Shown piece by piece: positions 2,245 through 5,531 of a DNA stretch of 26,991 nt; the stretch's first letter is position 1; the number at the start of each line of letters is the position of its first letter. The notes beneath the pieces are model-generated. The model did no database searches and was not told the DNA's origin. It saw nothing but the letters and a program-made list of their open reading frames with translations. Source of the stretch: a virus; IMG/VR virus record IMGVR_UViG_3300030116_006165, positions 1 through 26,991 of that record. One strand, given 5' to 3'. Position numbers and translations under genes: made by a program.

Positions 2245-3672
2245 TTAGTTAAGGACATAGTTTACTAATAATTGATGTACATTCTCATTTGGATTTTTTA
2301 ATATCATTTGTGTTAAAGCTGTAAAATCTGCTTTAGTCATGTTTTGTACTTTCTCAGCTAAATTAAAATCTATGAATTCTCTAGTTACCTGTTCATAAGG
2401 TATAAAGGTATCATTTTGTGTAGCTTTAATTAAAGCATCACCAGCATTAACTGACATTGCTTGTGCACCAGTCCTAGCATTTATATCACTTGGGATTATA
2501 GTTATATTCCACAATTCATCAGCACCTTTATTTTTAAATTTAGGAGCCTCTTTACTTAATTTAGCAAAATGCTGTACATCATGTATATGTTCTACTTGTA
2601 ATTCTTTCCAATTTTTTCTACCGAACTTTGCAATTCCTTCTGCATTTAGTTCTCTTAATTCTTCTTCTATTGCTGTATAAACTTTTCTATTAGTTTTCCT
2701 ATAACTTTCAACTAAATCTACGTTCGGATATTCAGACTGATATCTACTGAATTGAAACCTTAAAGTATCCTCATCTAGTTTTCGAGCTGCATTTCTATTT
2801 AGTGTTGCAATAGCTTTTCCTTCTTTATTCTTATAAACATATTTTGTCACACCAGTTTTTGATGATGTATAAGTACCTACAGTATAAATCTGACCATCTT
2901 TGGGATCTACAAATTTCTTATTAAAACCTGCTAGTGGGTATTTTTCACCTGCTTTTATTCTAGGTTCAGCATAATTTCTTGCAGCTTTATCTAAGTCTTT
3001 AAATGTTTGACTTGCTTTACCTTCTTTAGATATAGCAGCAAAGACATTCTGACCTAAACGATTATCTACACCTTGTTGTAAAAGACCACGATTAGATTGT
3101 ATACCAATAGTTTCATAGACTGGTTGTAAATAATTTGTATCTAAAGCTGCCTTAATATTAGATCTAAGTGGTTGTGTAGCTTCATCAAGTTTAGTTAAGC
3201 TTTTTTGAACAATAGGTATTTCACCAATAATCTTTTTAGCTGCATATTTTCCAGAGACTAAATCTACAACTTCCATAGATGCTTCTTTAGGATCTCGCCA
3301 ATTAACATCACCTACACTTTGAATAGCTCTAGCACCTATAGCACCTATATTGTGTGGTAAATTATACCATTCTTTAAATTCTTTAGTATCTTTCCAAGCA
3401 TCTCTTAATAAATGTCCTGTAAAGTTTAAACCCTTTTCAACATCTATAGCTCCTTCTTTGACACCTTGATCAGCAACTGATATTGTAGTATCTTCTGATG
3501 TATCTTCTTTTTCTTTAGCTCTTTTCTTAGCTTCTTGAGTCAAACCTTGGTCTTCAGAGATTTGTATTCTCTGCATTTTTTTCCATCGACTTTTTTTCCC
3601 TTTTCTTCTGAAATCTTCTGCTTTATCTAGGGATTTACGTCTAGGACCATCTATCCAAAGAGTTTCTGCCAT
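2245..3672 (-). CDS. HNH-nuclease-like protein next to terminase (475 aa)
   Basis: I do not recognise this family as a whole. The N-terminal 60 residues are highly basic and charged. Residues about 80-220 look helical. The C-terminal region at about 355-403 resembles an HNH/beta-beta-alpha nuclease: it has LQVEHIHDVQHF (E361, H362, H364, D365), then ELWNITIIPSDIN, then NARTGA, matching the usual pattern of His cluster, Asn and final Asn. No zinc-binding cysteines are seen. It starts at 3672 in a TAATG overlap with the basic protein before it and ends 6 bases before the 52-aa gene. Nucleases of this type often lie near terminases and can assist packaging in some phages (e.g. HK97 gp74). The nuclease assignment is inferred from the motif only. 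Confidence 0.6.
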   Translation of the reverse strand: MAETLWIDGPRRKSLDKAEDFRRKGKKSRWKKMQRIQISEDQGLTQEAKKRAKEKEDTSEDTTISVADQGVKEGAIDVEKGLNFTGHLLRDAWKDTKEFKEWYNLPHNIGAIGARAIQSVGDVNWRDPKEASMEVVDLVSGKYAAKKIIGEIPIVQKSLTKLDEATQPLRSNIKAALDTNYLQPVYETIGIQSNRGLLQQGVDNRLGQNVFAAISKEGKASQTFKDLDKAARNYAEPRIKAGEKYPLAGFNKKFVDPKDGQIYTVGTYTSSKTGVTKYVYKNKEGKAIATLNRNAARKLDEDTLRFQFSRYQSEYPNVDLVESYRKTNRKVYTAIEEELRELNAEGIAKFGRKNWKELQVEHIHDVQHFAKLSKEAPKFKNKGADELWNITIIPSDINARTGAQAMSVNAGDALIKATQNDTFIPYEQVTREFIDFNLAEKVQNMTKADFTALTQMILKNPNENVHQLLVNYVLN

Positions 3673-4143: not shown

Positions 4144-4298
4144 TAGCTAAATAGTTTTGTTTTAACAATTTCTAATGCTTTATCATCAAGTTTATTATCA
4201 GTTCTCTTTACATAAGCTTCTAGTACATCTACTAGTAATTGCTTAACAGAATCTGATTTAATAAAGGTGAGTAAGATGGGCTTGATTAATAATGTCAT
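4143..4298 (-). CDS. Small helical protein (51 aa), function unknown
   Basis: This complete 51-codon frame is short and easily missed. ATG at 4298 overlaps the stop of the secreted-protein gene as ATGA, and TAA at 4143-4145 overlaps the small terminase start as TAATG. The product begins MTLLIKPILLTFIKSDSVKQ and continues with VLEAYVKRTDNKLDDKALEI, ending TKLFS. It looks like two amphipathic helices, the first hydrophobic enough to touch a membrane. Tight overlaps at both ends strongly support translation. I know similar short proteins from cyanophages only as hypotheticals. Confidence 0.72.
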   Translation of the reverse strand: MTLLIKPILLTFIKSDSVKQLLVDVLEAYVKRTDNKLDDKALEIVKTKLFS

Positions 4299-4921
4299 TG
4301 TTTCAGTGGGCATTTAGTTTTAGGTTTTTGCCAAGGTTTATACCAAGGCTTAGGTGGGTTCTTACATTCAAGAACTTTTTTCTCTGCTTTCTTAAAGGCA
4401 GTTATAGGTATAACATCACTACATAAATGGTACACACGTGAACCAGGTAATAACATAAACCCTTTTTGTTGAAGTTTAGCACAGTTATCAATTCTAACTA
4501 GCTCATAATTCAACTTCATTTTATCATGTTGTGCTGCTGCTATTTCTCTACAGCGTTTTAAACCTTCTCTATCCAAAGGGATCATAAAGTTAATCTGACC
4601 ACCCCAGTTCTCCGCTAAAGTATAGCTAGCAGGGTTCATTATACCTTCATCAATATCCCAAGGTTTAGTATGATTACCCATATAAAATGGGGAGAAGGTC
4701 ATGGTAGCTCCATTACAGCTTATGTTTGGACCATAATGCTGCCTAGATGGAGCCCCATTATTTTGAAATTGGACGGCTTGGTTGGTTACATTGCCCGTTG
4801 CAGCCGCCACAGGATTAGATGTATTGTTTGTTTCTCCTTCATCAGCACGAACTGGTGCTACTGAGAGAAGACTGATAAGGAGACCGTAGTAGAAGTAGTG
4901 TCGATTTCTCTGTCGATTGAT
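4295..4921 (-). CDS. Secreted protein of unknown function with no canonical start codon
   Basis: The frame is open from 5221 to TGA at 4295, but only the part after about 4921 looks like protein. That part has a basic stretch (NRQRNRH), a hydrophobic core (YFYYGLLISLLSV) and an APVRA cleavage site before DEGE, which is a typical signal peptide. The mature part includes NVTNQAVQFQNNG, YGPNISCNGATMTFSPFYMG and paired cysteines. I believe this is a recurring cyanophage hypothetical family. There is no ATG, GTG or TTG just before the signal peptide. The coordinate given assumes initiation at ATC (4921), with GGAAG a few bases upstream. Alternatives are ATG at 5065, which would add a long tyrosine- and arginine-rich leader, or a -1 frameshift from the overlapping gene. 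The start is unresolved and the downstream coding part is solid. Confidence 0.7.
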   Translation of the reverse strand: MNRQRNRHYFYYGLLISLLSVAPVRADEGETNNTSNPVAAATGNVTNQAVQFQNNGAPSRQHYGPNISCNGATMTFSPFYMGNHTKPWDIDEGIMNPASYTLAENWGGQINFMIPLDREGLKRCREIAAAQHDKMKLNYELVRIDNCAKLQQKGFMLLPGSRVYHLCSDVIPITAFKKAEKKVLECKNPPKPWYKPWQKPKTKCPLKQ

Positions 4922-5229
4922 TCTACTTCCATAACTTGACTTGCAGCCCTCGTTACTATTTCTAGTGAGAAGGGGTCTCCAGCTGTATGTAGAGTAAAGA
5001 CTGAATCTGTATCTACTATACCTCCAGAGCTTGCTGAAGTATGTGTTATATTTTCTCCTGACCATTTGTTTAACGCTGACCCATACTTGGTGATAGTTAT
5101 GTCTTCTACTATCTCTTGAGTCGTTGTTGTTGTAGAGTTCATCGAACCCTGGGTGAATTGAGGTGTGACTAACTCTGCTCTTGCTACCGAGGGGGAGAAC
5201 AGTGCTAAGAGTAAAAGCCATTTCTTCAT
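4858..5229 (-). CDS. Secreted protein (123 aa), function unknown
   Basis: The start overlaps the holin stop as ATGA (5226-5229). A clear signal peptide is visible: MKKWLLLLALFSPSVARA, with cleavage before ELV. There is no lipobox cysteine. The mature part is about 105 aa, rich in Thr, Ser and Val, with a TTTTTQEIVEDITITKYGSA stretch. It looks beta-rich and ends LSVFSQ. Its last part overlaps the start of the next secreted protein in another frame. The neighbours are a holin-like gene and packaging genes, so the protein may act at the cell envelope during lysis or be a minor virion protein. The pair is not an obvious Rz/Rz1 spanin, since Rz1 is a lipoprotein. Confidence 0.75.
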   Translation of the reverse strand: MKKWLLLLALFSPSVARAELVTPQFTQGSMNSTTTTTQEIVEDITITKYGSALNKWSGENITHTSASSGGIVDTDSVFTLHTAGDPFSLEIVTRAASQVMEVESIDREIDTTSTTVSLSVFSQ

Positions 5230-5531
5230 TCTTCCTTTTTCTTTGCCATAGGACAGTTTACTGTGTTACTTTTATCTTTTGAATTACCAGTAGATAAGCC
5301 GAATGTTGCTAGAGCTCCAGTGAAGACACTGGCAACGAACGTGATATCTGAGTTACCAGATTTCTTAACTACAGGTAATTCTAAGTAATTTAAAGTTATA
5401 ATAAACCCAGACCAAACAACTACGCCAAGTCTGACGAAAGTTCCAAGTATTTGGATTTGAGCATCTTGATCCTCTATTCCGTCTTTGATTTTGGTGAGGA
5501 GTCCTTTTTTTTCTTCTGGTTTTCCTTCCAT
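5226..5531 (-). CDS. Probable holin (101 aa)
   Basis: Holins make the inner-membrane holes that trigger lysis. This 101-aa protein has a charged N-terminus (EGKPEEKKGLLTKIKDGIED) and two hydrophobic segments, about residues 28-50 (ILGTFVRLGVVVWSGFIITL) and 63-80 (ITFVASVFTGALATFGLS). It ends in a lysine-rich tail. Size and layout fit a class II-like holin, and the position just after the fibre gene matches T7 gene 17.5. The start at 5531 overlaps the preceding gene by 58 bases. The stop overlaps the next start as ATGA. I see no partner endolysin in the window. The assignment comes from topology and position. Confidence 0.6.
   Translation of the reverse strand: MEGKPEEKKGLLTKIKDGIEDQDAQIQILGTFVRLGVVVWSGFIITLNYLELPVVKKSGNSDITFVASVFTGALATFGLSTGNSKDKSNTVNCPMAKKKEE

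Follow-up and report, generated by a model that had tools for sequence, protein, structure and literature searches.

Start codons embedded in gp166 as the probable translation starts of the overlapping cyanophage gene gp165

The window, the whole stretch of DNA analysed here, is a virus record of 26,991 bases from IMG/VR in which profile searches identified TerL and TerS packaging genes of the T7-like kind. A pair of overlapping genes on its minus strand belongs to the cyanophage gp165/gp166 families (PHROG 848/1755 and 650, respectively; T4-GC 235/236), with significant matches over most of each protein: gp166 matched PHROG 650 across residues 1-123 (E 6e-32), and gp165 matched PHROG 848 (E 5e-57) and PHROG 1755 (E 6e-54). 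Pfam DUF6322 is matched by a T4-like relative of gp166. The features of the locus are collected in Table 1. The gp165 frame is -1 relative to gp166, 364 nt of the window are dual coding, and the gp166 stop codon falls within the hydrophobic core of the gp165 signal peptide, which begins at 4900 and reads HYFYYGLLISLLSVAPVRA followed by DEGE. At the other end of the overlap, the TGA of an upstream gene lies inside the gp166 ATG and the first gp165 ATG (ATG1) follows 8 nt downstream of the latter (local sequence ATGAAGAAATGG), so that 11 nt bring together three genes, each in a frame of its own. Elsewhere in the window, an ORF of 475 residues (2245-3672, minus strand) between the TerS-like and TerL genes had no PHROG or Pfam match.

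Table 1. Features of the gp166/gp165 locus in the window.
Feature	Position	Strand	Remarks
Upstream gene	5226..5531	-	DUF6450, PHROG 2714/721; TGA inside gp166 ATG (ATGA)
AAGGA, possible shared ribosome-binding site	5233..5237	-	3 nt before gp166 ATG, 11 nt before ATG1
gp166-like gene	4858..5229	-	123 aa, ATG start, plain N-terminal signal peptide, PHROG 650
gp165-like ORF	4295..5221	-	308 aa from ATG 5221; PHROG 848 and 1755
ATG1, inferred gp165 start	5219..5221	-	formed on gp166 Lys-Trp
ATG2, alternative internal gp165 start	5063..5065	-	on conserved gp166 Trp codon
Dual-coding overlap	4858..5221	-	gp166 in frame 0; gp165 leader and part of its signal peptide in frame -1
ATC proposed earlier as start, rejected	4919..4921	-	ATC in 1 of 83 clade loci
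gp165 signal-peptide core HYFYYGLLISLLSVAPVRA	4844..4900	-	cleavage, by eye, before D at 4843
Mature gp165, predicted exported	4298..4843	-	conserved cysteines

The original prediction had described two overlapping genes for secreted proteins, the second without a nearby ATG, GTG or TTG, and this description holds for the ORFs 5229-4858 and 5221-4295. None of the three codons occurs in the gp165 frame of the window between the ATG at 5065 and the core, and the sole near-cognate codon within 60 nt of the core is the ATC at 4921. The ATG at 5065 is the nearest ATG, as had been stated, but the in-frame ATG at 5221 had been overlooked.

A tblastn search with gp165 matched 453 of 50,697 phage records, nearly all of them cyanophages, both T7-like and T4-like. 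For a comparison of loci, we took the best 80 from each of four IMG/VR scans together with 23 GenBank regions and the window, 344 in all, of which 334 hold both genes; the ten without matches to both were left out. Four clades (window, T4-like, S-SBP1 and P-SSP7) were assigned by the best-scoring gp165 query and not by a tree. Of 329 loci, 288, the window among them, lack a standard start at a distance of up to 12 codons from the core, and its absence from the window is therefore not a sequencing error; 40 of the 41 loci that do have one belong to the P-SSP7 clade. A conserved ATG in relatives, which had been named as evidence that would overturn the original prediction, does not occur beside the signal peptide; the conserved ATG is found further upstream.

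The gp165 frame is in the -1 phase of gp166 in 331 of the 334 loci. This constancy and the length of the overlap are what a programmed -1 frameshift from gp166, giving a gp166-gp165 fusion, would have in its favour. However, no slippery heptamer of the form X_XXY_YYZ is present in the overlap of the window, just as had been reported, and none is common to any clade. In the three exceptional loci gp165 lies either in the other phase (P-SCSP1c, L093) or apart from gp166 (L120 and L138). The open stretch begins at start codons formed on Trp codons, where the wobble base persists only as long as the start is used, and in a fusion the core would presumably end up inside the protein, as a membrane segment downstream of a signal peptide that is cleaved off. 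The frameshift suggested earlier thus finds no support, and we hold it to be very unlikely.

In the podovirus P-SCSP1c, gp166 occupies 827-1187 and gp165 1132-1662, and the gp165 ATG stands directly at the signal peptide, 9 nt before the core. In the T4-like contigs L120 and L138, an antisense HNH-type endonuclease gene (1253-1786 and 1331-1864, respectively, both on the minus strand) splits the pair and leaves gp166 and the gp165 signal peptide readable. Its profile matches were to phrog_3322 (E 3e-31) and, for the L138 copy, phrog_374 (E 1e-10), and a Pfam search gave no match for either gene. Both contigs carry a gp165 ATG right at the signal peptide (MSLLKLFIHNKSYKYLLAIG). As the gp165 frame is also open further upstream (ATG 1580 and 1658), this endonuclease-split control is suggestive only. 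Upstream of gp166, the same two T4-like loci encode a secreted protein (307-838 in L120, 393-885 in L138) that by eye resembles a distant paralogue of gp166, and the gp166 of another locus, L104, has a weak match to phrog_564 (E 4e-4).

Initiation at ATC 4921, one of the options put forward earlier, would yield a textbook signal peptide, as would a start at some other near-cognate codon close ahead of it. The comparison contradicts it: the ATC is private to the window among 83 window-clade loci, the others having AGA (48), AGT (21), GGA (6), AAC (4) or CGA (3) at this position. Only 61 of 329 loci have any near-cognate codon at all at a distance of up to 12 codons from the core, and an ATC start does not account for the avoidance of stop codons 50-105 codons upstream. 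We find this reading barely credible. Because the ATC is private to the window, no heptamer is present and gp165 is in the other phase or apart in 3 of 334 loci, neither ATC initiation nor frameshifting explains the family.

Instead, the compared sequences make it very probable that translation of gp165 begins within gp166, at a standard start codon read in the -1 frame. An ATG, GTG or TTG lies upstream of the core in all 314 complete -1-phase gp165 frames (17 further frames run off their contigs and stand outside this number), and every first start within gp166 falls on a Trp codon (NTG followed by G; 313/313). An NTG in the -1 frame requires a TGN codon in gp166. Cys is absent from the last 66 residues of gp166 in all 319 loci scored, and in 71 of 77 window-clade loci this part holds neither Trp nor Cys. 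With no late Cys and few Trp residues, the gp165 start has to lie on a Trp codon; where the C-terminal part of gp166 has neither residue, no start is possible near the signal peptide, which is why it appeared to be missing, and translation must first pass through a leader that is about 8 to 107 residues long. The "long unusual leader" that had been offered as one option was thus the right one, with a standard start upstream and a leader frame free of stops.

The site of the first start, given in nt before the end of gp166, differs from clade to clade. It is an ATG at -166 in 78 of 79 T4-like loci, and in the S-SBP1 clade an ATG at -193 in 75 of 80 loci and at -112 in five. The P-SSP7 clade has ATG, GTG or TTG at -112 in 61 of 78 loci and ATG at -67 in 12. 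In the window clade, 49 of 73 loci have ATG at -364 and six have their first start at -208, and the rest start mostly further upstream. These six are closed above ATG2, which is their first start.

A -1-frame stop arises where a gp166 codon ending in T precedes AA, AG or GA, and we counted such stops over all members of each clade. In all four clades they are present in the upstream part of gp166 and drop to about zero from the clade's own start site onward: after about -180 in the T4-like clade, -193 in S-SBP1, -112 to -90 in P-SSP7 and -208 in the window clade. Against synonymous shuffles, the observed and expected numbers are 0 and ~134 in the T4-like clade (bins from nt -180), 5 and ~246 in S-SBP1, 1 and ~72 in P-SSP7 (bins from nt -90) and 0 and ~151 in the window clade. 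As a control, T stands before AA, AG or GA at a frequency of 0.41-0.46 in the upstream gene; for the part of gp165 outside the overlap the figure is 0.45-0.56. Both are similar to or higher than the values for other contexts, so that the neighbouring genes show no stop avoidance. Stop avoidance, its clade-specific boundaries and the control genes together indicate that selection maintains both frames. An open frame produced by the composition of gp166 would draw on the Thr/Ser-rich codons of this gene and on the fact that shuffling leaves about a third of the sequences open between ATG1 and ATG2. Yet the synonymous shuffles retain the composition and still give many stops, and the neighbouring genes lack the avoidance; the probability of such an artefact appears negligible.

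Within the window clade, all 65 unique gp166 genes leave the gp165 frame open between ATG2 and the core against ~4 expected from synonymous shuffles, a figure derived from open fractions of 0.067 (59 sequences) and 0.023 (six sequences). From ATG1 to ATG2 the frame is open in 59 of 65 against ~22 expected, and the six closed genes hold 15 stops in this stretch and none after ATG2. The division into open and closed sequences was made on the stops themselves, the per-clade bin counts and shuffle fractions being the unbiased versions. On these counts, ATG 5221 is the likeliest start in the window, with ATG 5065 second, and ATG2 is the likeliest in the six closed relatives. The codon at ATG1 is ATG in 64 of 65 unique window-clade coding sequences. 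It is nonetheless conceivable, if unlikely, that the same mechanism operates from ATG2 in the window as well, with a leader of 55 residues and with ATG1 and the open frame above it as by-products. ATG2 occupies the gp166 Trp column that holds the -193 start of the S-SBP1 clade, the annotation of P-SSP10 takes it as the start, and six window-clade loci are closed above it. The openness from ATG1 in 59 of 65 clade members speaks against this alternative, as does the ATG2 codon itself, which is ATG in 53 sequences and GTG (11) or CTG (1) in the other 12 of 65.

The wobble base of the codon before a Trp decides whether ATG, GTG, TTG or CTG is formed, and it provides natural experiments on start-codon use. 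The Ser codon ahead of the start-forming Trp in the S-SBP1 clade is TCA in 76 of 76 open frames and AGC in all five closed ones, and exactly those five loci carry ATG at the next Trp site. At the same Trp in the P-SSP7 clade, all four open frames have ACA for the preceding Thr, and the 73 closed ones have ACT (35), ACG (25), ACA (9) or ACC (4). The 39 P-SSP7-clade loci without a -67 start have GTG (30), ATG (7) or CTG (2) at -112 and never TTG; among the 31 with ATG at -67, 28 have TTG at -112, 11 of these being closed. One locus of this clade has its sole start at ATG -355 and another (L256) runs off its contig; the two fit the CTG pair and may be those loci. On the S-SBP1 tree, this trait shows three changes, and in 3 of 3 pairs the other site shifts in the opposite direction. 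On the P-SSP7 tree, 4-5 of 6 supported pairs change in opposite directions and about 0 in the same one, and in both clades the start-swap tests on trees comprise too few pairs to reach significance. Column-level tests concerning relatedness gave p values of 0.0037, 0.0003, 0.024 and 0.022. Conservation of the Lys codon AAA at ATG1 was dropped as evidence, since the P-SSP7 clade, where the frame is closed, has AAA fixed to the same degree (71/72). AAA at ATG2 in the window clade is hardly above background (41/51 versus 883/1207).

What is conserved in the leader is its openness and not its sequence. Synonymous diversity of gp166 is mostly 0.4-0.6 across the overlap, falling near the core and mildly across the T4-like overlap, and such high diversity through most of the overlap indicates that the leader is not conserved as the sequence of a protein would be. 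The earlier impression that these residues are a shadow of gp166 was apt: their identity is largely unconstrained, yet they are kept free of stops. The signal peptide itself stands out: in each of the four clades its h-region is more hydrophobic than all of 100 stop-free shuffles, and in three of them its n-region also has a higher charge than the stop-free shuffles. From its sequence, gp165 has the marks of a Sec signal peptide, namely a basic n-region, a hydrophobic core and a small-x-small motif before the cleavage site. Selection holds the leader open and, immediately ahead of the hydrophobic core, basic, with hardly any other constraint. It is unusual for a signal peptide to follow 50-107 residues, and the leader might be regarded as an over-long n-region. 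Export would proceed through Sec, signal peptidase would cut after VRA, and leader and core would then be discarded.

In the window, two standard starts in different frames, ATG 5229 and ATG 5221, follow one AAGGA in a single initiation region, an arrangement found in the window clade only. AAGGA precedes ATG1 in 29 of 56 unique window-clade sequences, and the ATGA junction, preceded by an upstream frame of 60 codons or more, occurs in 66 of 70 window-clade loci. Translational coupling between the upstream gene and gp166 at this ATGA is likely from the sequence, and the AAGGA and the kept ATGA make reinitiation, or a shared initiation feeding both genes, plausible. Ribosomes that end the upstream gene at ATGA (5229-5226), or that bind at AAGGA, could start gp166 at 5229 or gp165 at 5221, so that one initiation region would feed both genes, and a minority of relatives would use the position of ATG 5065. 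Shine-Dalgarno matches are enriched before the S-SBP1 (-193) and T4-like (-166) starts, part of which may be forced by the residues of gp166 itself. No Shine-Dalgarno-like match of at least 4 was found before the P-SSP7-clade starts.

Exported or membrane proteins encoded in overlapping frames are familiar in phages from the spanin genes Rz/Rz1 and from D/E of phiX174, and the gp166/gp165 pair resembles them in this respect. It differs from Rz/Rz1 in that gp166, which begins MKKWLLLLALFSPSVARAELV and contains no Cys, has no lipobox cysteine, and homology was not detectable. The longer protein of the Thermus rnpA-rpmH pair carries an N-terminal extension whose sequence is set by the gene nested in it. 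This pair is the closest known case, with genes nested in different frames and two AUGs a few nt apart (5'-AUGGAUG-3'; PMC9841429). It shares with the phage pair the nesting of one gene in another frame of a longer one and the neighbouring starts; unlike it, the phage starts are 8 nt apart, the extended protein, gp165, is predicted to be exported by Sec, and the gp165 start of other clades lies on other Trp codons of the nested gene gp166. The same source (Kohl et al. 2022, PMC9841429) reports experiments in E. coli on ambiguous initiation at AUGUG/GUGUG and on termination-reinitiation at AUGA, which likewise involve neighbouring starts in two frames and AUGA coupling; the overlap of starts there spans a few nt, whereas gp166/gp165 has 364 nt of dual coding conserved across phage families. 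A literature search of titles and abstract openings found no paper on the gp165/gp166 overlap.

Structure and profile matches gave no clue to the function of either protein. AlphaFold2 models were too weak to use (gp166, pLDDT 78 and pTM 0.36, with two strands of 22-23 residues; gp165, pLDDT 64 and pTM 0.38). No PDB fold matched them at E 0.001 or better, structure searches with gp166 returned only uninformative viral relatives, and profile searches of the PDB gave nothing below E 0.2. The gp166 model has two very long strands (28-49 and 99-121) around a small beta domain, and the C-terminal F-S-Q of the protein is invariant; the model, of low pTM, would allow an oligomeric barrel or fibre. 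A weak likeness of gp166 to beta-barrel pore stems (E 0.07 and above) was not used. Both proteins are predicted from their sequences to be exported, and this, with their position beside genes for small membrane proteins, suggests as a guess a late-infection role at the envelope.

Among sequenced marine cyanophages the pair has hundreds of carriers, which belong to two morphological kinds, and gene annotations often miss the true start of gp165. In 23 GenBank records, gp165 is annotated from upstream of the signal peptide in 11 and from inside or after it in 11, and the S-RIM32 record omits the gene; in these last two groups export is hidden. The record of ACG-2014a (L100, KJ019116) has gp165 annotated from the upstream ATG and gp166 unannotated.

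In a wider sense, the pair offers a clean natural experiment in which selection keeps a nearly free frame open and starts switch on the codons of another gene, and the embedded start gives concrete predictions for leader peptides and start-codon mutants. More tentatively, the design may be a virus-wide one: an exported protein would take its start from the Trp codons of another gene, with a stop-free, content-free leader of variable length as a by-product and with starts that hop between -364, -208, -193, -166, -112 and -67 nt. A shared initiation region might then set the ratio of the two exported proteins, and the discarded leader-plus-signal peptide could possibly remain in the host membrane as a third product.
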